From a virus, in the IMG/VR virus record IMGVR_UViG_3300022833_000025, positions 1 through 38,706 of that record: a stretch of 38,706 nt of DNA; one strand, given 5' to 3'. The notes below the pieces were generated by a model, which worked only from the letters and a program-made list of their open reading frames with translations, ran no database searches and was not told the DNA's origin. A program made the translations under genes and the position numbers. Position 1 is the first letter of the stretch; the number at the start of each line of letters is the position of its first letter. Below are positions 1,563 through 35,358 of the stretch, one piece after another.

Positions 1563-2777
1563 ATGGAACTTAAAGATTTAGCAGACAAGTTGAACACTGC
1601 ATCAACTGACATTAAAAATGCTCAGGTAGAAATGCAAAAAGAAATTAAAGCAAATGGCGATGTTAGCGCAGAAACCAAAGCCGCTTTTGAAAAGCACGAG
1701 GCAAACTTTGCAGAGTTAAAAACTTTGTTCGGTGCTGTTGATGCAAAGCTGATTGAGTTAGAACAGAAGTCTAAGAAGATGGAAAGCGGCTCAGAAATCC
1801 GTAAATCAATGGGTGAGTTGTTTACTGTATCAGATGCATTTACAGATATGAAATCAAACGGTCGCGGAAATAACGTCGCTGTTTCTTTCGAGCGTAAGGA
1901 CATTACTTCTGGCGGCTCAAGTGCAGGCGCTTTAATTCGTCCCGATCGTGATTCTCGCGTATTTCAAGACCCGAATAGACCAATCCGTATTCGTGACTTA
2001 ATCCCGACTGTGCCGACTAGCTCAAACGCTGTTGAGATTATGCGCGAAAACGTGTTTACAAATAACGCGGCTATACAAACTGCTGAGTTTGCAGCTAAAG
2101 CGGAATCCAATATAACTTATGAGTTGGTTACATATCCAATCCGCACTATTGCTCATTGGGTCCCAGCATCACGCCAGGTATTATCTGACGCACCAATGCT
2201 TCAAAACATGATTGACAATCGCTTAACTTATGGCCTTGATTTGGTATCTGACGCGCAATTGTTGTCGGGTTCTGGTACTGGTGTAAACTTAACTGGTTTA
2301 CTTGTAGATTCTGGCCTAAACGATGCCGGTGAGTTACCTTCTGGCACTGCTGCTGGTGATGTGCCTAGCGCTATGATTGACCATATACGCAAGGCTATCC
2401 GTATTGAGCAACAGTCTGACTATTACAATATGAACGGTTTAGTGCTTAATCCTGTTGACTGGGAAATCCTAGAAACAGCAAAAGCAACAGACGGACATTA
2501 CCTAATGGTTTCAATGCCCACTGTTCGCGCTGCTGATTCAGTATGGCGCATCCCTGTCATTGTAAGCAACGCAATGCCAGCCGATACATTCTTAATCGGT
2601 GATTGGACGCTGGGTGCTGTTATCTATGACAGAGAAAGTGTATCGGTTCGTGTTTCTGAGTCTCACGCTGATTACTTCGTCAAAAACGGTGTTGCAATCT
2701 TAGCAGAGGAGCGTTACACACTAGCAATTCCATTGCCTAAAGCATATTGCAAAGGTTCGTTTGTAGTAGCTACATAG
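1563..2777 (+). CDS. Major capsid protein, HK97 fold
   Basis: A 404-residue major capsid protein. Residues 1 to about 75 form a charged coiled-coil (delta/scaffold-like) segment (KDLADKLNTASTDIKNAQ), normally removed by the adjacent protease. The HK97-fold body follows, with typical segments such as RIRDLIPTVPTSSNAVEIMRE, THWVPASRQ-like IAHWVPASRQVL and GDWTLGAVIYDRESVSVRVS near the end. The ATG follows AGAGGG. A strong terminator lies just downstream, consistent with a highly expressed gene. Family assignment is confident from order and sequence. Confidence 0.95.
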   Translation: MELKDLADKLNTASTDIKNAQVEMQKEIKANGDVSAETKAAFEKHEANFAELKTLFGAVDAKLIELEQKSKKMESGSEIRKSMGELFTVSDAFTDMKSNGRGNNVAVSFERKDITSGGSSAGALIRPDRDSRVFQDPNRPIRIRDLIPTVPTSSNAVEIMRENVFTNNAAIQTAEFAAKAESNITYELVTYPIRTIAHWVPASRQVLSDAPMLQNMIDNRLTYGLDLVSDAQLLSGSGTGVNLTGLLVDSGLNDAGELPSGTAAGDVPSAMIDHIRKAIRIEQQSDYYNMNGLVLNPVDWEILETAKATDGHYLMVSMPTVRAADSVWRIPVIVSNAMPADTFLIGDWTLGAVIYDRESVSVRVSESHADYFVKNGVAILAEERYTLAIPLPKAYCKGSFVVAT

Positions 2778-2793
2778 TAAATATGTACACAGT

Positions 2794-2822
2794 AAAAAGC
2801 CGCTTTAATTAGCGGCTTTTTT
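2794..2822. terminator. Rho-independent terminator, probably bidirectional
   Basis: The stem AAAAAGCCGCT / AGCGGCTTTTT with a 6-base loop (TTAATT) is followed by T-rich sequence on the plus side and by T-rich sequence on the minus side as well. It sits between the ends of the rightward capsid gene and the leftward gene at 2840-3193 and can stop both. Confidence 0.93.
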
Positions 2823-2839
2823 ATTAGTATATTAATATC

Positions 2840-3193
2840 TTACGCATCCTTAACATTACTCTGCTTATAACAAATCAAATAGATCTCATTTGCAAACTCT
2901 TTAATTGAATTATCTTGCATCTCCTTGGTTGAGTATCTTGGTCGGTCGTATGCCTCAATTGTAATAACGCTCATTATCTGCTCAAACGCTGGTTGTTGTT
3001 TGGCTATGTCTAACAAAGTGGAGATTGAGGCATTAGCTTGTCTCATGCGCATGACTACGGTTGCGATATTACTCCATTCTTTGCATTGATTTTTTTCGAA
3101 CGCTAAAGCCTTGGGTGCGCTTGCTAGTGCTAATGTAATTACAAATCCAGTTAGCGCGGCCCATAGTGTTATATTTTTTACTGTAATTTTCAT
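2840..3193 (-). CDS. Secreted/periplasmic moron protein
   Basis: A 117-residue protein with a classical signal peptide: MKITVKN, a hydrophobic core (LWAALTGFVITLALASA) and a probable cleavage site after ALA (APKALA/FEKNQ). The mature part has two Cys (NQCKEW and YLICYK) that could form a disulfide, and is mostly helical. The chosen ATG at 3193 follows AAAGGTAAG; upstream in-frame starts would place charged residues before the signal. It is a lone leftward gene among rightward head genes with its own promoter and terminator, the typical arrangement of a moron. Function unknown; superinfection exclusion or envelope modification is a guess. Confidence 0.8.
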   Translation of the reverse strand: MKITVKNITLWAALTGFVITLALASAPKALAFEKNQCKEWSNIATVVMRMRQANASISTLLDIAKQQPAFEQIMSVITIEAYDRPRYSTKEMQDNSIKEFANEIYLICYKQSNVKDA

Positions 3194-3225
3194 TTTATTA
3201 CTTACCTTTAATCTATTGAATCTTA

Positions 3226-3263
3226 ATCCTAGCACACTTTATTTGTATATCTGGTCTTACCAG
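3226..3263 (-). promoter_or_regulatory. Leftward promoter with CTGGT palindrome (site B, minus)
   Basis: Read leftward, CTGGTAAGACCAG (3251-3263) is followed after 19 bp by TAGGAT (3226-3231), a possible -10 for the secreted moron gene. The downstream DNA resembles that at site A (AAGTGTG next to the -10). Confidence 0.55.
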
Positions 3264-3271
3264 TTTATAAT
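3243..3271 (+). promoter_or_regulatory. Rightward sigma70 promoter with operator in the spacer (site B, plus)
   Basis: TTGTAT (3243-3248), 17 bp, TATAAT (3266-3271, consensus). The spacer contains the perfect palindrome CTGGT-CTT-ACCAG (3251-3263). The layout is the same as at site A and would drive the connector and tail genes beginning at 3295. Confidence 0.7.
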
Positions 3272-3294
3272 AAGGTAATTTATTGAGGTATATA

Positions 3295-3468
3295 ATGACA
3301 ACATACGAAATATTGGTTAATTCACATTACGGCAGGGTAGGCAATACTATTCAATTTGCCGACTCAATGGAAGTTATGGAATTGCTTCAACGAGGATTTA
3401 TTGGGCATGTCAAAAAGAGCAAACCAGTAAAAAAGCAAACTTATAAGCCAAATGAGAAAAAAGCATAA
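3295..3468 (+). CDS. Small head-region protein
   Basis: A 57-residue protein beginning MTTYEILVNSHYGRVGNT. The pattern 'G..GNTIQFADSMEVMELLQRGFIG' followed by a Lys-rich tail (KKSKPVKKQTYKPNEKKA) is typical of small proteins encoded between the capsid and head-tail connector genes of HK97-like phages. The ATG at 3295 follows TTGAGG. It abuts the next gene (stop at 3468, where the next ATG begins). Role unknown; probably virion-associated or an assembly helper. Confidence 0.75.
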   Translation: MTTYEILVNSHYGRVGNTIQFADSMEVMELLQRGFIGHVKKSKPVKKQTYKPNEKKA

Positions 3469-4055
3469 TGAGCTTTAAAACTAATGATGGATTAATTGCG
3501 CCTGTGTCAATCTTAGAGCTATCAGAGTTCGCAAGGTTAGACATTGACGACCCTACATTGCAAGGCTCGTTATTAAGCGCGACACAGCTTGTTATTAGTT
3601 ATCTAAAGCAAGACCTAATCACGCGAGAGTATTTACTAAAGCTAGTCGAGTGGCCTATTGCATCAAAGACAAATTTTTATCATCTGTCACGGCCTAGTAG
3701 CATTTACAAGTTAGATATTGACCTACCGATGGCAAACATACAGCAAGTTATTGAAGTTAAAGTTTACGACGAAGTAGAAACAGAATTCACGCTGTACAAC
3801 GAAAAACAGGCGTTTATACGATTTGACACTGCATACTTAGATAATAATCTAAAGGTTAACGCAATAGAGGTTAAATACTTAGCGGGTTTCGGTTATTCGG
3901 TTAATGATATACCTGAGCCAATAAAGCAAGGCGTTCTAATGGTAGCTGGATACTTAAACTTGCACCGGGGCTGCAATGCCACTGATGCGCTTAAAATGTC
4001 TGGTGCATATCATTTATTAGTGCCATTCGCGGTAAATGCTGGGTTTGTAATTTAA
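3468..4055 (+). CDS. Head-tail connector protein (gp6-like)
   Basis: A 195-residue protein of the HK97 gp6 / SPP1 gp15-like connector type, which forms the ring under the portal. The helical N-terminus (ILELSEFARLDIDDPTLQGSLLSATQLVISYL) is followed by a beta-rich domain with 'VKYLAGFG', then 'IPEPIKQGVLMVAGYLNLHRG', both hallmarks of the family. It overlaps its neighbours by single bases, in the standard order capsid, gp6, adaptor, gp10. Confidence 0.85.
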   Translation: MSFKTNDGLIAPVSILELSEFARLDIDDPTLQGSLLSATQLVISYLKQDLITREYLLKLVEWPIASKTNFYHLSRPSSIYKLDIDLPMANIQQVIEVKVYDEVETEFTLYNEKQAFIRFDTAYLDNNLKVNAIEVKYLAGFGYSVNDIPEPIKQGVLMVAGYLNLHRGCNATDALKMSGAYHLLVPFAVNAGFVI

Positions 4056-4393
4056 TGAAATGCTGCGATATAACTCCCGCAAGCCTTAATCGTAAAATAA
4101 CGATTAATAGCTTAGTGGTTACAGCAACGGCAACAGGCGGACAATCCCAGTCGTTTGTTAAGCTTGCTGACGTTTGGGCAAAGATTAAGAATATGACTGG
4201 CTCAGAGTTGATGAGATATGACCAACTAGGCGCGGTTGCAATGAGCAAATTTACTATTCGCTATAGGTCAGATATAAAAGAAAGTATGACAATAATCTAT
4301 CGCGGTGATGAATACAATATTAAGCACATTGATAACATCGAAGAGGCTGATAGGTTTTTGACTATCACAGCTAGACGCGGGGTTAATTCATGA
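4055..4393 (+). CDS. Head-tail joining/adaptor protein
   Basis: A 112-residue protein of the phage head-tail joining family (SPP1 gp16-like stopper). Typical features are the start 'SLNRKITI', the central 'VWAKIKNMTGSELMRYDQLGA' and 'KFTIRYRSDIKESMTIIYRGDEYNIKHIDNIEE', ending 'LTITARRG'. It lies between gp6-like and gp10-like genes and overlaps the latter by 4 bases (ATGA). Confidence 0.87.
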   Translation: MKCCDITPASLNRKITINSLVVTATATGGQSQSFVKLADVWAKIKNMTGSELMRYDQLGAVAMSKFTIRYRSDIKESMTIIYRGDEYNIKHIDNIEEADRFLTITARRGVNS

Positions 4394-4827
4394 GTGTTAA
4401 AGTGACTGGTGTAAATAGTTTTAGGCGCAAGATGCAATTACTTGGCGACTCATTTGATGAAGCTGTTGACGAAGGTGTTTTCGGTGCAGCCTTAGAAATT
4501 CAAGGTTACGCAAGGGAAAGCATCCAAGAGGTTTCACCAGGCTCAACAGTTGTAAGGTACAGCCAAGATGGTAACCCATATTCTCACGTTGCCGCTGACA
4601 GAGGCCAAGCGCCCAACACTGACACTGGTAACTTAGTTAATGCGATACAAGTTGAAAAGATGGCAGACAGTATTTATCGCGTTGGTGCTACAGCAAAAGC
4701 CCCATATGCAACATATTTAGAATTTACGCATCCGTGGTTGCAGCCGTCACTAGAATCTAACCGCGGAGCAGTTCGCCGGAATATAATTAGGTCGGTTAAT
4801 AATGCAATTGACAGGTTGCCGGTATGA
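4390..4827 (+). CDS. HK97 gp10-like head-tail/tail completion protein
   Basis: A 145-residue protein of the HK97 gp10 family. It begins with the usual 'VTGVNSFRRKMQLLGDSF', has 'GAALEIQGYARESIQEVSPG', a 'DTGNLVNAI' turn and 'VGATAKAPYATYLEF', and ends with the 'HPWLQPSLESNRGAVRRNI' type helix. It overlaps the preceding and following genes by 4 bases each, indicating a coupled operon. Confidence 0.88.
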   Translation: MSVKVTGVNSFRRKMQLLGDSFDEAVDEGVFGAALEIQGYARESIQEVSPGSTVVRYSQDGNPYSHVAADRGQAPNTDTGNLVNAIQVEKMADSIYRVGATAKAPYATYLEFTHPWLQPSLESNRGAVRRNIIRSVNNAIDRLPV

Positions 4828-18831: not shown

Positions 18832-20700
18832 TCACCCTTCTTCACGGCCAGATAAAAACCGTCTACGATTAATTATCGAAAAACCTTTATCATTAACTCG
18901 ATGTGTAATATGCGACGGCATACAAAACATCGCTTTATTCTTTATGATGTCATTAATTGTCGTATTTTTTCGCATTATAGCCTGGAATCCGCGCCCGTTA
19001 ATGTGAGTGCTGACAAATGATTGCCATTTCTGGCGCTCGTGCGGTGCGGTGCTAAATGGTTTTAAATATTCTCTAGCAACTTCTTGCATTTCCTTTCCGT
19101 GAACCGTGTAAATACTGTTCAAACTGTACTCGACACAAACACCGTCTTTGTTTGCTGTTGGCTTCATACTCATACTGCCAAATACAACTTCTTTCCAGTT
19201 GGCATCCGTATACGCTTTATTCTTTAACGCCTTTGCAGGGTCAATCATAATCGCGTCACAGTTGCGGCAAGTGCGAGCGGTCGGAGCATTCATTGTATCG
19301 CAACGTAAGCACATCGAACCTTTAAAGTAGTAATCACAACGTCCGTCTGAATTAGTCGCTGCACCGATGCATCTGACCGCATGAATACTGTTTACCGCGT
19401 TACATGTCGGGCAATCTTGCGTCTCACTAATAAATTTACCTTTTGCGGCTCTTGCATTGTCGAGCATAGGGTCGTCGTATATGTCACCGAATGACTCAAA
19501 AGTATCGGTATAGTCAAGCACCAATCCATCTATCTTAGTAAATCCACGCTCTAAATCTTCATCTTCTAGCGTGCGCAATATGCGACCGATAAGTTGCGTT
19601 AACAATGTAAGCGACCCAATGCGGCGCAATATTACTGATGTAGATAACGGCGGGATATTTATACCAGTCGTTAAACACCCAATTTGTAATATGTATTTAA
19701 TCTTGCCCGTGCGTACATCTGTTAATGATTGAGATCGGGCTTTTGTGCTTGTAGAGTCAACAATAATGGCCCAGCTATCCTCTGGCAAAAACTCTGCAAC
19801 CTGTTCACAGTGCTTTTTACCGGCACAAGTAATCATTACACCACCGCTGCGAGCTTCGCATATTCCTACAACCTCTTCCATAATTATTTGCGTAAGCTGT
19901 TTGTCCTTTGTAATTTTACGCTGCATCGCTTGTAATTCTTTGGCGCCGTAATCACTCGCACCTTTGTCAGCATCCTTAGGCGTCCATTCTGCTAAATCAT
20001 ATTTGTGCGCATCATCACCAAAGCCAAACACTGGCGGCACTAGATAACCAAGACTAACTAAGTACATTGTTGGCACTTCATATAGTTTCTTTTGCCAAAA
20101 ATCGCCGATGATAGTTTCTTTTCCGCGGTAAGGTGAGCCAGTGTAGCCAATGATACGCAATTTAGGATTGAGTTTTAGTAGGTGCATTATGATTTTTGTG
20201 TATTGGGTTGGTTCGGTTTGCGTTATACATGAATCATCAGACTGTTTAGTGGTTCTTTTACGGCTATTATTTTTAATTGACAGCGTTGTATCCTGGTGGT
20301 CAACGTGGTGGCATTCATCAATTAGTAATAAATCATACTTAGTTGTCGCAAAATCACCATCTAACGCGCCCGCAATTGTTCCCTCAGTACCAAAAACAAC
20401 AGGATAAAATGTTGACTTACTGCCACATGATGCAGAATAAATACTGTTCTTTAATCCGCATTTCCATGCCATTTCACTATTTTGTTTAACTAGTTCGCCT
20501 TGCCTAGCTAAGATTAAAACACGGCCGCCTTTTTCTTGTGTGTGTTTAGCAATAGCCGCAATATTTAGGGTTTTACCAGCGCCAACAGACGCATCAATAA
20601 ACGCTGGTTTAGCATCTTTTGTGCGTAAGTGTTCGAGTGTCGCGTTGTGTATTGGTAATTGGTATTCTTCGCGGAGTTTGAATTTGTTTAGGTTAATCAT
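18832..20700 (-). CDS. SF2 DNA helicase (DECH box) with zinc ribbons
   Basis: A 622-residue helicase. Walker A is SVGAGKT (about residues 38-44), motif II is LLIDECHH, motif III is GYTGSPYRG, and motif VI is QLIGRILRT. After the helicase core, a Cys-rich part carries CPTC, CLRC and CRNC pairs, suggesting two zinc ribbons. The start at 20700 (MINLNKF) follows GGGGATAAAA and overlaps the upstream gene by 8 bases. Likely a replication or recombination helicase of the phage. Confidence 0.9.
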   Translation of the reverse strand: MINLNKFKLREEYQLPIHNATLEHLRTKDAKPAFIDASVGAGKTLNIAAIAKHTQEKGGRVLILARQGELVKQNSEMAWKCGLKNSIYSASCGSKSTFYPVVFGTEGTIAGALDGDFATTKYDLLLIDECHHVDHQDTTLSIKNNSRKRTTKQSDDSCITQTEPTQYTKIIMHLLKLNPKLRIIGYTGSPYRGKETIIGDFWQKKLYEVPTMYLVSLGYLVPPVFGFGDDAHKYDLAEWTPKDADKGASDYGAKELQAMQRKITKDKQLTQIIMEEVVGICEARSGGVMITCAGKKHCEQVAEFLPEDSWAIIVDSTSTKARSQSLTDVRTGKIKYILQIGCLTTGINIPPLSTSVILRRIGSLTLLTQLIGRILRTLEDEDLERGFTKIDGLVLDYTDTFESFGDIYDDPMLDNARAAKGKFISETQDCPTCNAVNSIHAVRCIGAATNSDGRCDYYFKGSMCLRCDTMNAPTARTCRNCDAIMIDPAKALKNKAYTDANWKEVVFGSMSMKPTANKDGVCVEYSLNSIYTVHGKEMQEVAREYLKPFSTAPHERQKWQSFVSTHINGRGFQAIMRKNTTINDIIKNKAMFCMPSHITHRVNDKGFSIINRRRFLSGREEG

Positions 20701-21595
20701 TTTTATCCCCATCAAACAAATCAAATTGAGCCTCACATGACTCCCCACATGAACCACTATCTAATGATTTTGTTTTGTGGATGCTGTTTTTAATTTCATT
20801 ATTAGAAAAGTCGCTAAACATTTGAATAATAGAACCTAAACTTTGACCGTTTCTGTAAATAACCCCTTTCGGGTATTTATTTGCCGGTAATACTCGCGTT
20901 TCTTTATCCGTAAAACACTCTTCCCACAACTTCGCTAGTTCTGGGTCTTCCCTTTGCGCCAGGGCAATCTTCTTAGCTGATTTTTTTACACAAAAAACAC
21001 AGTTACCTAAATGCTCTCCTATTTCTAAATCAAATGGCATTTTTAGCCAAAAATCCAAAATATCCTCTTTTATAAAATCACTGATTTGAGCTAAGTATCT
21101 AACGTTAGGATTAACATGTAGCTTTTTACCAAACATATCAGGCGTAACTTCCATATTTTTCAATCTTTTAGGTTCATCAATGCGCATACCTAGCCAATTC
21201 ACATAATTGCCTTTACCGAATTTATCGTTACAAAACTTATTTAAAGAGGTGGTTTTTAATCTTTCTGTGCAATAAGGGTTCATTATTGAAAATGTGCTGT
21301 ATTTTCTTATATTTTCCTTTATGGTTGTTAAATCAAAACCAATTCCATTTACGCCCACATCTTTGTAAGTATTGCCAACCCCTGACTCTTGATTTACCAA
21401 GGCTTTAATGCAATGTAAATTGATACCAAAATGCTCAACACACTTTCTTATAAACTCATAAGTCTTTGGATGCTCTGCGCCAGTATCACAAAAGACATAC
21501 TCAACATCCCACCCGTGATTTTTTCTTTTATCTTCCATCAAATAAACCATGTATGCTGAAGTTCTACCCCCGCTAAAGCTGACTATATTAATCAT
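20693..21595 (-). CDS. PAPS reductase-like protein 1
   Basis: A 300-residue protein of the PAPS reductase / ATP pyrophosphatase superfamily. The PP-loop is SFSGGRTSAYM at the N-terminus, followed by 'VEYVFCDTGAEHPKTYEFI' and later a CVFC pair (GNCVFCVKKSAKK). The C-terminus has 'CGESCEAQFDLF'. Such phage proteins often replace sulfate-assimilation activity with an unknown, possibly nucleic-acid modifying, role. It sits next to a primase and is paralogous in type to the gene at 22466-23242. The start at 21595 follows GGGGATGATTT. Confidence 0.85.
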   Translation of the reverse strand: MINIVSFSGGRTSAYMVYLMEDKRKNHGWDVEYVFCDTGAEHPKTYEFIRKCVEHFGINLHCIKALVNQESGVGNTYKDVGVNGIGFDLTTIKENIRKYSTFSIMNPYCTERLKTTSLNKFCNDKFGKGNYVNWLGMRIDEPKRLKNMEVTPDMFGKKLHVNPNVRYLAQISDFIKEDILDFWLKMPFDLEIGEHLGNCVFCVKKSAKKIALAQREDPELAKLWEECFTDKETRVLPANKYPKGVIYRNGQSLGSIIQMFSDFSNNEIKNSIHKTKSLDSGSCGESCEAQFDLFDGDKND

Positions 21596-22400
21596 AAAAA
21601 TCATCCCCACTCATTCGCTTACTTAACTTACCAGTCAATTTCCTATACTCAGACCACACACCTTTATCCATTAACGAATGCGCCAACGTATCGTCCTCAG
21701 TCAACACAGGAATGCGCGTAATAGGCATATCACACTCGGCTAATAGCTTTGTATTGTATGCTGAGTGACTAACTAAAATGTTGACGTTTTTATGCTTGTT
21801 AAATATTTTAATTGCATCATCGTATTCAGTGACTATTAGATAAGTGTCAATTTGTTCGTCTCGTATTAATGGTGTGTATGCTAAATGTGATACACTACCA
21901 ACAACAAAATGCCCTGTTACTATGTCGTATAAGTTTGCTATTAAGCCTTGCAAATCAATAACTGGTGCGTAAAAGTGCAAGCCAACATCAAATATTACAA
22001 CGCCGTTTATTGTTGTGACATTGTGATTCTGTAGCAATTCAACACACAAATCATGGTCGCGTCTATAATAACCATGCATCGTGCTAATTACCCTATTCAT
22101 ATTCTTCTTAAATTGTTCACTCGGTGTTGCTGCTACGTTTGCGCCTAGCATTTCACATGCCTTTCTAAACTCTACTTTCTCAAAGTTCATTACAAAACCA
22201 ATCGCATTTCCAGTTGCGCCGCAACCGAAACAATAATAAAACTGCTTGGCCTCATTAACTTTAAATGAAGGTGACTTTTCGGCATGAAAAGGGCAACACA
22301 TTACGTAATTACCACCCTCTTTCTTTAGCTTTAAACCAGTGTTATTGATTACGTCAACTATGTTTAGTTTTGCGAGTAGTGCGTCTGTGTCGATTTTCAT
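21588..22400 (-). CDS. DnaG-type primase (zinc finger plus core region)
   Basis: A 270-residue primase-like protein. The CHC2 zinc finger is clear (MCCPFHAEKSPSF, then FYYCFGCGATGNAIGFVM) near residues 30-65, followed by a region with 'YLIVTEYDDAIKIF' and 'VNILVSHSAYN' that could be a TOPRIM-like fold with an E..D..D set. It lacks a helicase domain. The ATG at 22400 follows AAAGGGGAAGA. It probably works with the DUF3987 ATPase and the helicase. Confidence 0.85.
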   Translation of the reverse strand: MKIDTDALLAKLNIVDVINNTGLKLKKEGGNYVMCCPFHAEKSPSFKVNEAKQFYYCFGCGATGNAIGFVMNFEKVEFRKACEMLGANVAATPSEQFKKNMNRVISTMHGYYRRDHDLCVELLQNHNVTTINGVVIFDVGLHFYAPVIDLQGLIANLYDIVTGHFVVGSVSHLAYTPLIRDEQIDTYLIVTEYDDAIKIFNKHKNVNILVSHSAYNTKLLAECDMPITRIPVLTEDDTLAHSLMDKGVWSEYRKLTGKLSKRMSGDDFYD

Positions 22401-30841: not shown

Positions 30842-32212
30842 ATGGCTTATTACCTACAGTTCCCTACAGCCAGAAGCAGCACTTTTGCAACCGTATACGG
30901 CGTAACTGGTAATGCAATTATAGAGCTAGAATTCAAGCAAGCTATTACAGCATCAAGTTCTGGCGACTCTTACTTGTTTGATGGTCGAGTTGGAGGGGGG
31001 GACGGTTATCTTTTAAAACGGAACTCGGGCACTTTAGACTTCAGGGTGGATACTTTTGAGAAAAACGGGACTACCGTTTCCGCTGTTGACCTATTTACTG
31101 CAAGTGTAGATGATGTGATTTCCTTTAGGAGTACAGATACAGGGAGTTCATTTGTTTTAGGTGCTAGATTTACAGGGCGTGATAGTTGGTCTGATTTTAA
31201 TTATTCTTACATTAAAGTTACTGACGACAACGGCGTACACATCATAGACATGTCAGATAGCGGTGGTACGGGAACTTCCGTAACTAGCGACACTGGCACG
31301 CTAACAATGACGCTTTCTAATTTTAACGGCACAACAAATAGCTGGTGGGTATTTTACGATGATGGCGGCTCAATATCCGCATCGGTAGCCCAAACAATAA
31401 GCAAGCCAGTATTCTCAATTGCATCTAGCTTTGTTGCGCCAGTAACAATAAGCGCAGATATTGCCTACACAATTGCAAAACCAATATTTGCAACGGCAGC
31501 ATCTAAAGTAGTACCAACATTTACATCTGATTTAGCTTTTAATGTAGCTAAACCATTATTTGCAACAGCCGCATCAACAACCGTGCCAGTATTTACATCG
31601 GCGTTAACTGTTGATATAAGCAAGCCAATATTTGCAGTAATCGCAGAGAATGGGCAGTTAGTAATAACATCTGCTGTTGCGACATCAATATCTAAACCAG
31701 TGTTCAGTGTTGCCGCAGATAATCAAGTATTAATTATTAATTCTGCAATTGCATTATCAGTATCTAAACCCGCGTTTAGTATTGCCTTATCAAATAGCGT
31801 GCCAATATTTACGGTTAACACTGCCTTTGATATTACTAAGCCAATATTTAGCATTGCAAGTACTACAACTGAGCCGGGTAATGCATCGGCATTAATAGCC
31901 GTTTTAGTTGATGCGCCAATATTTAGTGTAAGCACATCATTAATTAACCCGCTATTATCTACAATTGATTTTAGTATTGATGCACCTGTGTTTAGCGTAT
32001 TAAACAGCGCGACAAGACCTACACTAAGCGCAGAGATTACAGTTGACGTAACAGCACCGACATTCAGCGTTATTGCTAACAATGGCATACAGGTGTATTA
32101 TTATAGGTCTGGAACTCAGGTAATTACATACAGCCAAAATACACAAATTAAAATCCGTACTTTAAACACAAATCAGCCGCTATATACTAGCGCACGACAC
32201 AGGAAAATATAA
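30842..32212 (+). CDS. Structural protein with LamG-like domain and ten 24-residue repeats
   Basis: A 456-residue protein. Residues 1-165 resemble a concanavalin/LamG-like sandwich (AIIELEFKQAITASSSGDSY, 'GGGDGYLLKRNSGTLDFRVD'). Residues about 178-425 consist of ten imperfect 24-residue repeats centred on (S/A)KP-(I/V)FS, such as ISKPVFSVAADNQVLI. The end is 'YYYRSGTQVITYS'. It may be a head fibre or other virion surface protein, as it lies just upstream of the terminase and other likely virion genes. The start follows the upstream TAG by two bases. Confidence 0.8.
   Translation: MAYYLQFPTARSSTFATVYGVTGNAIIELEFKQAITASSSGDSYLFDGRVGGGDGYLLKRNSGTLDFRVDTFEKNGTTVSAVDLFTASVDDVISFRSTDTGSSFVLGARFTGRDSWSDFNYSYIKVTDDNGVHIIDMSDSGGTGTSVTSDTGTLTMTLSNFNGTTNSWWVFYDDGGSISASVAQTISKPVFSIASSFVAPVTISADIAYTIAKPIFATAASKVVPTFTSDLAFNVAKPLFATAASTTVPVFTSALTVDISKPIFAVIAENGQLVITSAVATSISKPVFSVAADNQVLIINSAIALSVSKPAFSIALSNSVPIFTVNTAFDITKPIFSIASTTTEPGNASALIAVLVDAPIFSVSTSLINPLLSTIDFSIDAPVFSVLNSATRPTLSAEITVDVTAPTFSVIANNGIQVYYYRSGTQVITYSQNTQIKIRTLNTNQPLYTSARHRKI
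31378..32095 (+). repeat. Ten diverged 72-bp coding repeats
   Basis: Period about 72 bp (24 codons), encoding units like SDLAFNVAKPLFATAAS plus TTVPVFT. The copies share the protein pattern more than the DNA, so they are old. The last three units replace SKP by DAP or TAP. Confidence 0.8.
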
Positions 32213-32833: not shown

Positions 32834-33238
32834 ATGGGTGTTCATGCAGTGTACAACTCTGGCTCGATTCTTTCTGAGTTTGATAAGTTTTTAGAGCATC
32901 ATCACGAACGCGGCTGCATAATTGAAAATAAGCCGCATGTCGTTAATGGTCAAATCGAATACTCAGAAGTGCTAAAACCTAGAGCAATGACATTTGAGTC
33001 TTTATATAACTTCCTTGGTATTGGAGCCACTACATTTAAACGCTACCAAGTAAGCAAAGACGAGGCTATGGTTAATGCAACCGAGTACATGCGTAATTAT
33101 ATATTTGCGCATAACTTTGAGTACGCAGCCGCTAACCAGACAAATTCAACATTGATGGCCCGGTATCTAGGTATTGTTGACAAACAACAACTTGAAGTCA
33201 CCGAGAAGATTGTTGATAGCGGCGAGGATGAGTGGTAG
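32834..33238 (+). CDS. terS: Terminase small subunit
   Basis: A 134-residue small terminase candidate. The central 'PRAMTFESLYNFLGIGATTFKRYQ' is an HTH-like DNA-binding segment and is followed by a helical region with 'YIFAHNFEYAAANQTNSTLMARYLGI', typical of small terminases. It overlaps the large terminase start by 7 bases. It would recognise phage DNA for packaging. Confidence 0.82.
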   Translation: MGVHAVYNSGSILSEFDKFLEHHHERGCIIENKPHVVNGQIEYSEVLKPRAMTFESLYNFLGIGATTFKRYQVSKDEAMVNATEYMRNYIFAHNFEYAAANQTNSTLMARYLGIVDKQQLEVTEKIVDSGEDEW

Positions 33239-35358
33239 ACCTTGCTAAGTTTAGGCGTCACGTACAAGATAAATCTCCCGCGTTTGTGCCTTTATTTCAA
33301 GACCAGTCGCGCTATCAGATAGCATGGGGCGGCGCGGGTTGTGTGCATCCAGAAACAAAGATACACACAGAACACGGGGTTATGCGTATTTGTGATATAG
33401 ACCGTCCAATGCGAGTGTTAAGCTGGAGCGAGAAAAGTCAACAATTCCAGCTTTCGTTAAGTGGTGGTGCGTTCCCAAAAGGTAAGGACTATCTATACCA
33501 AGTTTCAACGCCGAACGGAGTATTTCAATCAAGCGGGCATCACCTTGTCTTACTTTCAACAGGTGAGTATCAACGGGTTGATATGCTAGTGAGCGGCGAC
33601 GAGTTAAGTCAAGCGCAACCTTGCCAGAATCAGACCATTTCGGAATACTGCCAGACAGCGTTAAACGAAGATGCTCAGCATTACTCGGAAACAAACGAAG
33701 ATTTAATGGGTCGTTATGCAGACGAATGCCGTCGATATGATCCACTACCTCAAGAGTTAGGAGATTACGCTTTATTTTCTGAGCAACAACAAGACGATGT
33801 TCAAGTATTCGACCGTTTAAATTTGCCATTAAAATCCACTTTTTCGGACAAATTACAGACGCATAACCATCCTTATTTATGTGACGACCAACTTTATAAA
33901 AACCATTTCGATGAGATGGGACAGCAGATTGAACTCGACGAGGGAGGTCAAACTTTAGCATCATCTTTTGTACATATTTCGCATTCTCATTTAGTGCCTC
34001 AGCAATCTCAGTTGAGGAGCGAATACCGTCGCACATCGGGACTATCTTTTGAAATCGAGCAAGAGCCGTCGGATTATTTGGTTGATTCATATATACCTCC
34101 AAGCATTGTTAAATCAACCGTATTATTCAGCGCCTCCCCTGTATTGTCAATAGTTAAATCTGAGGTTTCAAAGTATTGGTGTATGCAAGTACTAGACACT
34201 AATAATTACGTATCTGAGGACGGTACAATACATCATAATAGCGGCAAATCGCACATAGTCGCACGTAAAATGTTATACCGAATACTCAAAGAAAGCGACC
34301 AAAAGCATAACTTCCTAATCATCCGAAAAGTTGACCGAACTATAAAACGCTCGGTCTTTACGCTTATACGCAACATCATTTCAGTGTGGGGATTAAATGA
34401 AGAGTTCAATGTAAACCTTACAGACAAGACTATTGTATACAAAAAGAATGGCTCACAGTTTATGTTTAGCGGCCTTGATGATGTTGAGAAGATGAAGTCA
34501 ATTGAGGGCGTAAGCTCAATATGGATAGAAGAGGCTACCGAGCTAACACAAGAGGATTTTGAGCAACTTGATTTACGATTACGTGGGCAAACTAAATACA
34601 TTAAACAGATAATAATGACGTTTAACCCAATTAGTGAGCAACATTGGACCAAGCGAGTTTTCTTTGACGACCCAATAAAAGACGTCTTTACGCTTAAAAC
34701 TACTTACCTAGATAATTATTTTATTGATTCAGCATACAAAATGGTTATGGAAAACAAGAAGAAAACAAACCCGCGTTATTATACTATTTATGCGCTTGGC
34801 AATTGGGGTACTGCTGACGGACTGGTATTTAACAATGTATCTACTAGGCTAATTAGGCAAGAAGAAATAGACGGGCTTGAGTATGTTCAAGGGCTAGACT
34901 TCGGATATACTAACGACCCCAGCGCATTCAATCAAACATACATTGATGTTAAGAATAAAAAGATATTTGTTTATGATGGATTTTATGAAAAGGGTTTAAG
35001 TAACTCAGACATAGCCGTCAACATTAAAAAGCTGTTAGCGCATAGACATATGACAACAGCGGATAGCTCAGAGCCTAAGTCAATTGACTACCTAAAGACA
35101 AAGGGTGTAATTGTTAGAGGTGCAATGAAAGGTGCTGGGTCAATCAGCACCGGATTAGACTTCTTGCTTGAGTTTGACATTGTGGTAAACGCTCACCTAG
35201 TCGAGTTTATGGTCGAATTTGACAACTATTGCTGGGCTGTAGATAAGAATAATAAGCAACTAAATAAACCGGTCGATGATTTTAACCACTTCATTGATTC
35301 ACTTCGTTATGCGTGCGAGCATCACACAAGAAACAAGAGTTTTGTTTTTGCTTGCTAA
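33232..35358 (+). CDS. terL: Terminase large subunit with in-frame intein
   Basis: A 708-residue precursor. The packaging ATPase/nuclease is residues 1-36 plus 337-708 (408 residues after splicing). Splicing joins WGGAG to SGKSHIV and restores Walker A (GGAGSGKS). Walker B is SIWIEEA (about 429-435); the C-terminal nuclease has GLDFGY (Asp556), TTADSSEPK (Asp611) and DDFNHFIDSLRY (Asp682-683), the pattern of PBSX-type terminases. Without splicing the ATPase site is destroyed, so the intein must splice. The start is GTG at 33232 after GGCGAGG; the nearby ATG at 33228 is out of frame. Confidence 0.95.
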   Translation: MVDLAKFRRHVQDKSPAFVPLFQDQSRYQIAWGGAGCVHPETKIHTEHGVMRICDIDRPMRVLSWSEKSQQFQLSLSGGAFPKGKDYLYQVSTPNGVFQSSGHHLVLLSTGEYQRVDMLVSGDELSQAQPCQNQTISEYCQTALNEDAQHYSETNEDLMGRYADECRRYDPLPQELGDYALFSEQQQDDVQVFDRLNLPLKSTFSDKLQTHNHPYLCDDQLYKNHFDEMGQQIELDEGGQTLASSFVHISHSHLVPQQSQLRSEYRRTSGLSFEIEQEPSDYLVDSYIPPSIVKSTVLFSASPVLSIVKSEVSKYWCMQVLDTNNYVSEDGTIHHNSGKSHIVARKMLYRILKESDQKHNFLIIRKVDRTIKRSVFTLIRNIISVWGLNEEFNVNLTDKTIVYKKNGSQFMFSGLDDVEKMKSIEGVSSIWIEEATELTQEDFEQLDLRLRGQTKYIKQIIMTFNPISEQHWTKRVFFDDPIKDVFTLKTTYLDNYFIDSAYKMVMENKKKTNPRYYTIYALGNWGTADGLVFNNVSTRLIRQEEIDGLEYVQGLDFGYTNDPSAFNQTYIDVKNKKIFVYDGFYEKGLSNSDIAVNIKKLLAHRHMTTADSSEPKSIDYLKTKGVIVRGAMKGAGSISTGLDFLLEFDIVVNAHLVEFMVEFDNYCWAVDKNNKQLNKPVDDFNHFIDSLRYACEHHTRNKSFVFAC
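33380..34090 (-). CDS. HNH homing endonuclease encoded antisense within the intein
   Basis: A 236-residue protein. Residues about 20-50 form an HTH (RSSTEIAEALNENAKYVQKM); 'GFYKVGRHINKDGYASVI' and then the HNH core 'LEHRLVVAQ', EVVDHIDGIRLHNDPLNLRL and SNAEH (His98, Asp117-His118, Asn126, Asn130, His140) follow the standard phage HNH order. The ATG at 34090 has a GGAGG ribosome site 5 bases upstream. Residues after about 145 lie opposite the N-terminal splicing blocks and match nothing known. It would cut intein-free terminase genes and spread the intein. The HNH motif is clear; that it is expressed is inferred. Confidence 0.85.
   Translation of the reverse strand: MNQPNNPTALARFQKIVPMCDGIRSSTEIAEALNENAKYVQKMMLKFDLPRRVQSAVPSHRNGFYKVGRHINKDGYASVICPKKWILMANLNGRILEHRLVVAQKIKRNLLTLEVVDHIDGIRLHNDPLNLRLFPSNAEHLRLTLSGSIPKWSDSGKVALDLTRRRSLAYQPVDTHLLKVRQGDARLIEILRSALKLGIDSPYLLGTHHHLTKAGIVDFSRSSLTLALDGLYHKYA
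34122..34150 (-). promoter_or_regulatory. Antisense promoter for the HNH endonuclease
   Basis: Read leftward, TTGACA (34145-34150, consensus), 17 bp, AATAAT (34122-34127, 5 of 6 consensus). It lies inside the intein, just before the region coding the C-terminal splicing blocks, and would give a leader of about 25 bases before the HNH start. Confidence 0.7.

Follow-up and report, generated by a model that had tools for sequence, protein, structure and literature searches.

The gene encoding the large subunit of terminase (TerL) in the virus described here is interrupted by an intein, and a predicted homing-type endonuclease is encoded on the complementary strand of that same intein. The question raised by this locus is whether one piece of DNA can serve as a mobile intein by encoding protein splicing on one strand and homing on the other. 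The window, by which we mean the whole stretch of 38,706 nucleotides that was analysed, is an IMG/VR virus record. The reading that we favour, with a probability of roughly 0.87, is that of a mobile intein that divides splicing and homing between the two strands of a single stretch.

The TerL gene, of the PBSX type (33232..35358, + strand), was recognized by TIGR01547 (E=3.4e-64) and Terminase_3 (E=2.1e-52), and its neighbour encodes the small subunit of terminase (32834..33238, + strand; phrog_606, E=1.1e-15). TerL and a class 1 intein of 300 codons (33340..34239, + strand) form a single continuous ORF of 708 codons. The intein is placed in the Walker A motif (G|C...HHN|SGKS), and the sense reading WGGAG|CVHPET...TIHHN|SGKSH puts its borders exactly at 33340-34239, with Cys1 at residue 37 of the TerL ORF, an SSGHH block B and an HHN/Ser+1 end. 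The exact insertion point is given by an empty allele, L126, in which the junction reads GGAG|SGKS. Across the intein family C1, the S/T..H of block B, HHN (H299/N300) and a Ser/Thr at +1 are conserved. For the +1 serine codon, AGY stands at 40:22 in the intein-bearing genes and at 15:32 in intein-free relatives, two sets that also differ in phylogeny.

The AF2 model of the intein is of high confidence across residues 1-95 and 263-300, reaching a pLDDT of 86-97 for residues 1-90. The first of these regions is predicted by AF2 and Foldseek to be the N-terminal splicing half of a HINT fold (33340..33624, + strand) and the second, with a pLDDT of ~93 and sense-wobble substitutions, its C-terminal splicing half (34126..34239, + strand). 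Foldseek returned 32 matches to this model at E<=0.001 with solved inteins on top, Ssp DnaB (1mi8) being aligned with an rmsd of 2.1. When searched on its own against Pfam and NCBIfam and with phmmer, the intein of the window gave sub-threshold matches only, including one to Intein_splicing. These weak single-sequence matches were resolved by family alignments and structure, since the Intein_splicing family of Pfam matches 33 of the 45 family members and the family profile matches the solved mini-inteins Spl DnaX and Ssp DnaB. The borders, the catalytic residues and the HINT fold prediction all agree with the class 1 intein in the TerL Walker A motif that an earlier note on this DNA had described.

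These observations bear on the possibility that nothing is spliced here, the sense frame being open only for a tolerated loop around an antisense HNH gene inserted in terL. Out-of-frame HNH insertions without splicing domains do exist, as in the same-strand ShiLan case, for which such a tolerated loop has been proposed (PMC11855218). For the present locus we regard this as highly improbable, as the HINT fold is complete with conserved catalytic residues at both ends, an insert left in Walker A should abolish the function of an essential ATPase, and a mini-intein without endonuclease (L112, see below) retains the splicing halves only.

Between the two halves lies a sense-frame linker (residues 96-262; 33625..34125, + strand) that is predicted to be mostly disordered, residues 137-260 having a pLDDT below 50. 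Its frame is open but weakly conserved (sense amino acid divergence of 0.32-0.50). Searches of this middle region against Pfam and PHROG gave no endonuclease match, which bears out the absence of an endonuclease from the sense frame claimed in the earlier note; the HNH is on the minus strand. A candidate sense motif in the linker, near residues 115-135 (Y126, R131), was rejected: it is opposite the HNH active site and is best read as its shadow.

The complementary strand carries a gene predicted to encode an HTH+HNH homing endonuclease of 236 amino acids plus stop (33380..34090, - strand). It runs from an ATG at 34090 to the stop at 33380, thus covering 711 nt of the intein as previously claimed, and an alternative TTG start at 34102 would add four amino acids. 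The protein matches phrog_10730 (HNH endonuclease) over its whole length (E = 7.6e-105); alone it is just under the HNH_3 cut-off, and HNH_3 was found in 49 of 50 HNH family members, with HTH families in many of them. A helix-turn-helix domain is predicted at the N-terminus (residues 1-56; 33923..34090, - strand) from HTH Pfam matches in relatives and from winged-HTH structures. The HNH nuclease domain (residues 53-147; 33650..33934, - strand; EVVDHIDG...HN...NLRLF..N..H) was delimited by invariant columns and by a VIA match to residues 10-104 of I-HmuI. This enzyme gave the top structural alignment (VIA Z 6.6, rmsd 3.6, 84 residues; residues 53-147 only) and ranked second in Foldseek, with a probability of 0.82 and a weak E-value. 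The single HNH sequence had no match in the PDB, and the family profile gave weak matches only.

The last part of the protein is a C-terminal extension (residues 157-236; 33383..33622, - strand), read opposite the N-splicing domain and supported by the AF2 model and by suppressed sense wobble. The AF2 model of the HNH protein has a mean pLDDT of 85, and of 81-97 over the last 66 residues (171-236). A search of phage genomes for relatives of the extension beyond the family itself gave none at E<=1, and the structural aligners listed no strong match for it, which says little. Because the HINT fold is ancient and the extension lacks homologues outside the family, the latter most likely arose by overprinting.

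The same layout was found in the isolated Pseudoalteromonas phage PHS3 (HNH 73% and intein 56% amino acid identity to the window), and in seven Pectobacterium phages and Dickeya phage Setonix (51-53% and 38-39%, respectively). A profile scan of IMG/VR gave 268 relatives, and in all 76 loci examined the HNH was fully antisense, in the same phase, to a stop-free ORF that reads as TerL plus intein. A second scan, in which a shorter HNH was used as seed, brought in a second clade as well as groups further removed; the HNH was antisense, in the same phase and opposite a P-loop intein in 60/60 loci examined. The conservation of the antisense HNH frame among homologues, which the earlier note had put forward as a check, therefore extends to all loci examined of both scans, and considerably more than a hundred related sequences of viruses share the layout. 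Some loci are duplicated under different ids, and the statistics given below refer to 66 distinct inteins and to 22 non-overlapping pairs.

The host genes are terminases of several Pfam families, with one SNF2-type helicase (L275) among them; the layout therefore extends beyond terminases. In the L275 record (IMGVR_UViG_3300044977_000070) the sense ORF is found at 1972-4473 on the - strand, and the intein with its antisense HNH is in the P-loop of the SNF2/DEAD-type helicase. Prophage-like copies were found in Enterobacter cloacae DSM 26481 (L118) and in an Acinetobacter strain (L119).

The extent of the HNH gene varies among loci. In L120, L121 and the second clade (L201-L256) the HNH is shorter, has no C-terminal extension and ends close to the border of the N-splicing domain; this short form is an ancestor-like arrangement. 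In L070 and L089 the antisense HNH ORF continues past the intein start into N-extein codons, for 44 and 23 nt respectively. In L214, from the second scan, the opposite sense ORF spans 82% of the HNH, which may reflect a frameshift, a sequencing error or a dead copy.

Annotation practice explains why such elements go unnoticed. In the PHS3 record (L001 4153-6131) the annotators took the antisense HNH for the gene, and their TerL is therefore cut short and starts within the intein. The Pectobacterium phage records favour the other strand: a hypothetical protein is kept and the HNH is missed. Elsewhere in the window, a 456-amino acid repeat protein (units like ISKPIFSxA...) without PHROG match is encoded upstream of the terminase genes (30842-32212, + strand). 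An auxiliary gene resembling phosphoadenosine phosphosulfate reductase (20693-21610, - strand; phrog_33262, 6.4e-87) is also annotated in PHS3.

An antisense ORF may of course follow from composition or from the sense frame, and be no gene at all. Long antisense ORFs are common, and the window has others, at 31723-32088 and 34233-34652. In the present case the HNH family match, the confident fold and the Shine-Dalgarno site argue against this explanation, as does the identity to PHS3, which is higher for the HNH (73%) than for the sense frame (56%). The substitution pattern has already refuted it, and we give it next to no credence. Antisense codon position 3 is opposite sense position 2, and antisense position 2 is opposite sense position 3; therefore the two frames can be distinguished by where substitutions fall. 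Between the window and PHS3, the substitutions at sense positions 1, 2 and 3 numbered 34/67/24 in the HNH core, 4/3/15 in the first 90 nt of the intein and 9/3/12 in its last 90 nt. Over the 22 non-overlapping pairs they amounted to 419/942/306 in the core versus 139/68/320 in the C-domain (chi2 = 417, p = 2e-91), and every one of the 22 pairs preferred the antisense wobble in the HNH core and the sense wobble in the C-domain.

Moreover, no sense stop was found across the HNH core in any of the 66 distinct family inteins (66/66), while permutation of synonymous HNH codons gave a mean of 4.8 sense stops (8.7 for the window, with P(0) < 1/300). The openness of the sense frame across the HNH itself is under selection. 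The check for selection on both strands proposed in the earlier note thus has its answer in the sense wobble of the splicing domains and the antisense wobble of the HNH core: the overlapping sense and antisense genes are both under selection.

The overlap between the HNH and the N-splicing domain shows a pattern of its own. The sense-wobble rate per site is 0.45-0.47 in codons 1-13, to which the HNH ORF does not reach; it drops to 0.11-0.16 in codons 14-80, over which the HNH overlaps the N-splicing domain and all three positions are slow. In the second clade, whose HNH ends at about intein codon 70, the rate is 0.47-0.59 throughout codons 20-72. Because this short-HNH clade is unslowed, the slowing of the N-splicing codons in the clade of the window is due to the HNH extension. 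Judging by the predicted folds, about 80 codons in the clade of the window serve two folded proteins simultaneously, encoding a portion of each. The suggestion that the two proteins may evolve separately does not survive this result, as ~80 C-terminal residues of the HNH and most of the N-splicing domain share codons and are mutually constrained.

Signals for expression of the HNH gene were also identified. A predicted sigma-70-type promoter, TTGACA-17-AATAAT (34122..34150, - strand; 11/12 consensus match), faces the gene, and a Shine-Dalgarno sequence, GGAGG (34096..34100, - strand), is placed 5 nt upstream of its ATG, both inside the intein and near or within the C-splicing half. The promoter-like site is the best in 2.6 kb; it was recognized by its fit to the consensus, and sense codons (LSI) account for part of it. 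At the equivalent position PHS3 reads TTGACA-17-GATAAT. In 46/66 inteins of the clade of the window the best site has a 17-bp spacer and sits at either of two fixed offsets, against a same-offset expectation of 0.13 from shuffles, a count inflated by the kinship of the sequences and by the sense codons. At least 10/12 positions match in 24 of the 66 (2.0 expected), and some members, such as L066 and L074, match perfectly (12/12). The sigma-70-like site is absent in the Pectobacterium phages and in much of the second clade; an SD-like motif precedes a start codon in 38 of 57 second-clade and distant loci, mostly at a similar place. From these motifs we suggest that the HNH is probably transcribed from its own sigma-70-type promoter and translated from its own ribosome-binding site within the intein. 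Separate timing of endonuclease and terminase, as the earlier note had imagined, would fit a promoter facing the HNH.

Empty (L126), full (the window), decayed (L010, L097) and endonuclease-less (L112) alleles were all found at one insertion site. L126 and the intein-bearing L125 come from one metagenome; the TerL of L126 is 99% identical to that of the window after the site and has no intein, and exactly this site is intein-free in 59 of the 64 close TerL relatives checked. In L097 a stop interrupts the HNH, the sense frame and the intein being intact, and in L010 and L011 the N-terminal half of the HNH is lost with the sense frame kept. L112 has a 135-amino acid mini-intein, reduced to the splicing halves, in a TerL close to that of its HNH-bearing sister L110. 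The empty, decayed and endonuclease-less alleles are consistent with a homing cycle, as is the spread of the element over unrelated TerLs and an SNF2 helicase. HNH identity exceeds 50% between TerLs that barely align. Overall, however, HNH and TerL divergence are correlated (Spearman 0.75), and much of the inheritance is therefore vertical. The flanks of L125 and the window compared with those of L126 gave no clear co-conversion tract or gradient beside the insertion.

The decayed relatives L010 and L097 could be taken to mean that in this phage too splicing works and the HNH is inactive and decaying. We think this unlikely, as the HNH of the window is intact, has its catalytic motif, Shine-Dalgarno sequence and promoter, and shows antisense-synonymous bias in its core. 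A different role for the HNH would be in DNA packaging instead of homing. HNH proteins act beside some terminases, as gp74 does in HK97, a 2014 study by Kala and colleagues, cited in PMC10448857, is said to have dealt with HNH proteins in packaging, and the HNH described here is nearly always within terL. This role seems to us a shade less likely again than a dead element: L126 is a near-identical TerL allele without the HNH, the HNH is lost or broken elsewhere while the TerL frame stays open, it is also found in an SNF2 helicase, and its nearest structure is that of the homing enzyme I-HmuI.

In the mobile two-strand intein that we prefer, the sense frame would be translated as part of terminase, giving a HINT splicing domain with a long disordered linker, and the intein would self-excise and restore Walker A, as predicted from its residues and fold. 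The antisense frame would give a separate HTH+HNH homing endonuclease, probably through the promoter and ribosome-binding site inside the intein. Intein-free terL genes, such as that of L126, would be cleaved by this enzyme at their Walker A codons, and the element would be copied in when the break is repaired. In the clade of the window the HNH appears to have gained a C-terminal extension read opposite the N-splicing domain. A broader reading, towards which we lean with limited confidence, is that of a widespread superfamily of inteins that use both strands, housed in the P-loop ATPases of phages and derived from a single antisense HNH capture at the position of an intein endonuclease; within one clade, a new folded DNA-binding domain would have been overprinted opposite the catalytic HINT half, and the HNH would have its own promoter and homing a separate expression.

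The family represents a rare, well-replicated natural case in which both strands encode folded domains, with the sister clade as a built-in control. The layout suggests a route to endonuclease expression apart from the host gene, and offers a template for the engineering of overlapping genes that is carried by cultured phages.

According to published work, the endonuclease of an intein sits inside it at a single conserved position (PMC6801210); here, splicing and homing are served by two proteins from complementary strands. In a full-text search of an open-access library, no intein with an antisense endonuclease was found described, in agreement with the earlier note, whose author was aware of no family with this layout. 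Among the nearest known systems are the TerL P-loop inteins of mycobacteriophages, which are class 1 and have in-frame endonucleases (PMC5050341). They share the HINT halves, the C1...HHN/S residues, the TerL P-loop, the patchy presence and the mini-intein derivatives; however, their endonuclease is in frame within the spliced protein, whereas here it is encoded separately, on the other strand, and in part overprints the splicing domain. Antisense homing endonuclease genes are found in nuclear group I introns such as L2066 of D. squamulosum, and cleavage of the intron-less site by I-DsqI has been proven (PMC9548176). L2066 also has the splicing element on one strand and the homing endonuclease gene on the other, but it is spliced as RNA, lies in eukaryotic rDNA and encodes an enzyme of the His-Cys type; neither protein splicing nor a doubly protein-coding stretch is involved.

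The ShiLan domain is a same-strand, out-of-frame HNH in a stop-free insertion of a phage gene (PMC11855218). It resembles our element in that an HNH is hidden in another frame and has a homing-like distribution; in ShiLan, however, both frames are on the same strand, splicing domains were undetected and no ribosome-binding site was found, whereas the window has HINT halves and an antisense HNH. Homing endonucleases of the I-HmuI type share the HNH core but are intron-encoded, and the match to them excludes the C-terminal extension of the family of the window. Fractured genes, in which a free-standing endonuclease is found between the halves of a split intein, were reportedly described by Dassa and colleagues in 2009. 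There, too, splicing and endonuclease are separate proteins, but the host gene and intein are split, while here the intein is continuous and the endonuclease is antisense inside it. By function the element is a mobile intein, of an already known kind; its two-strand architecture and doubly coding stretch had no description in the library searched.
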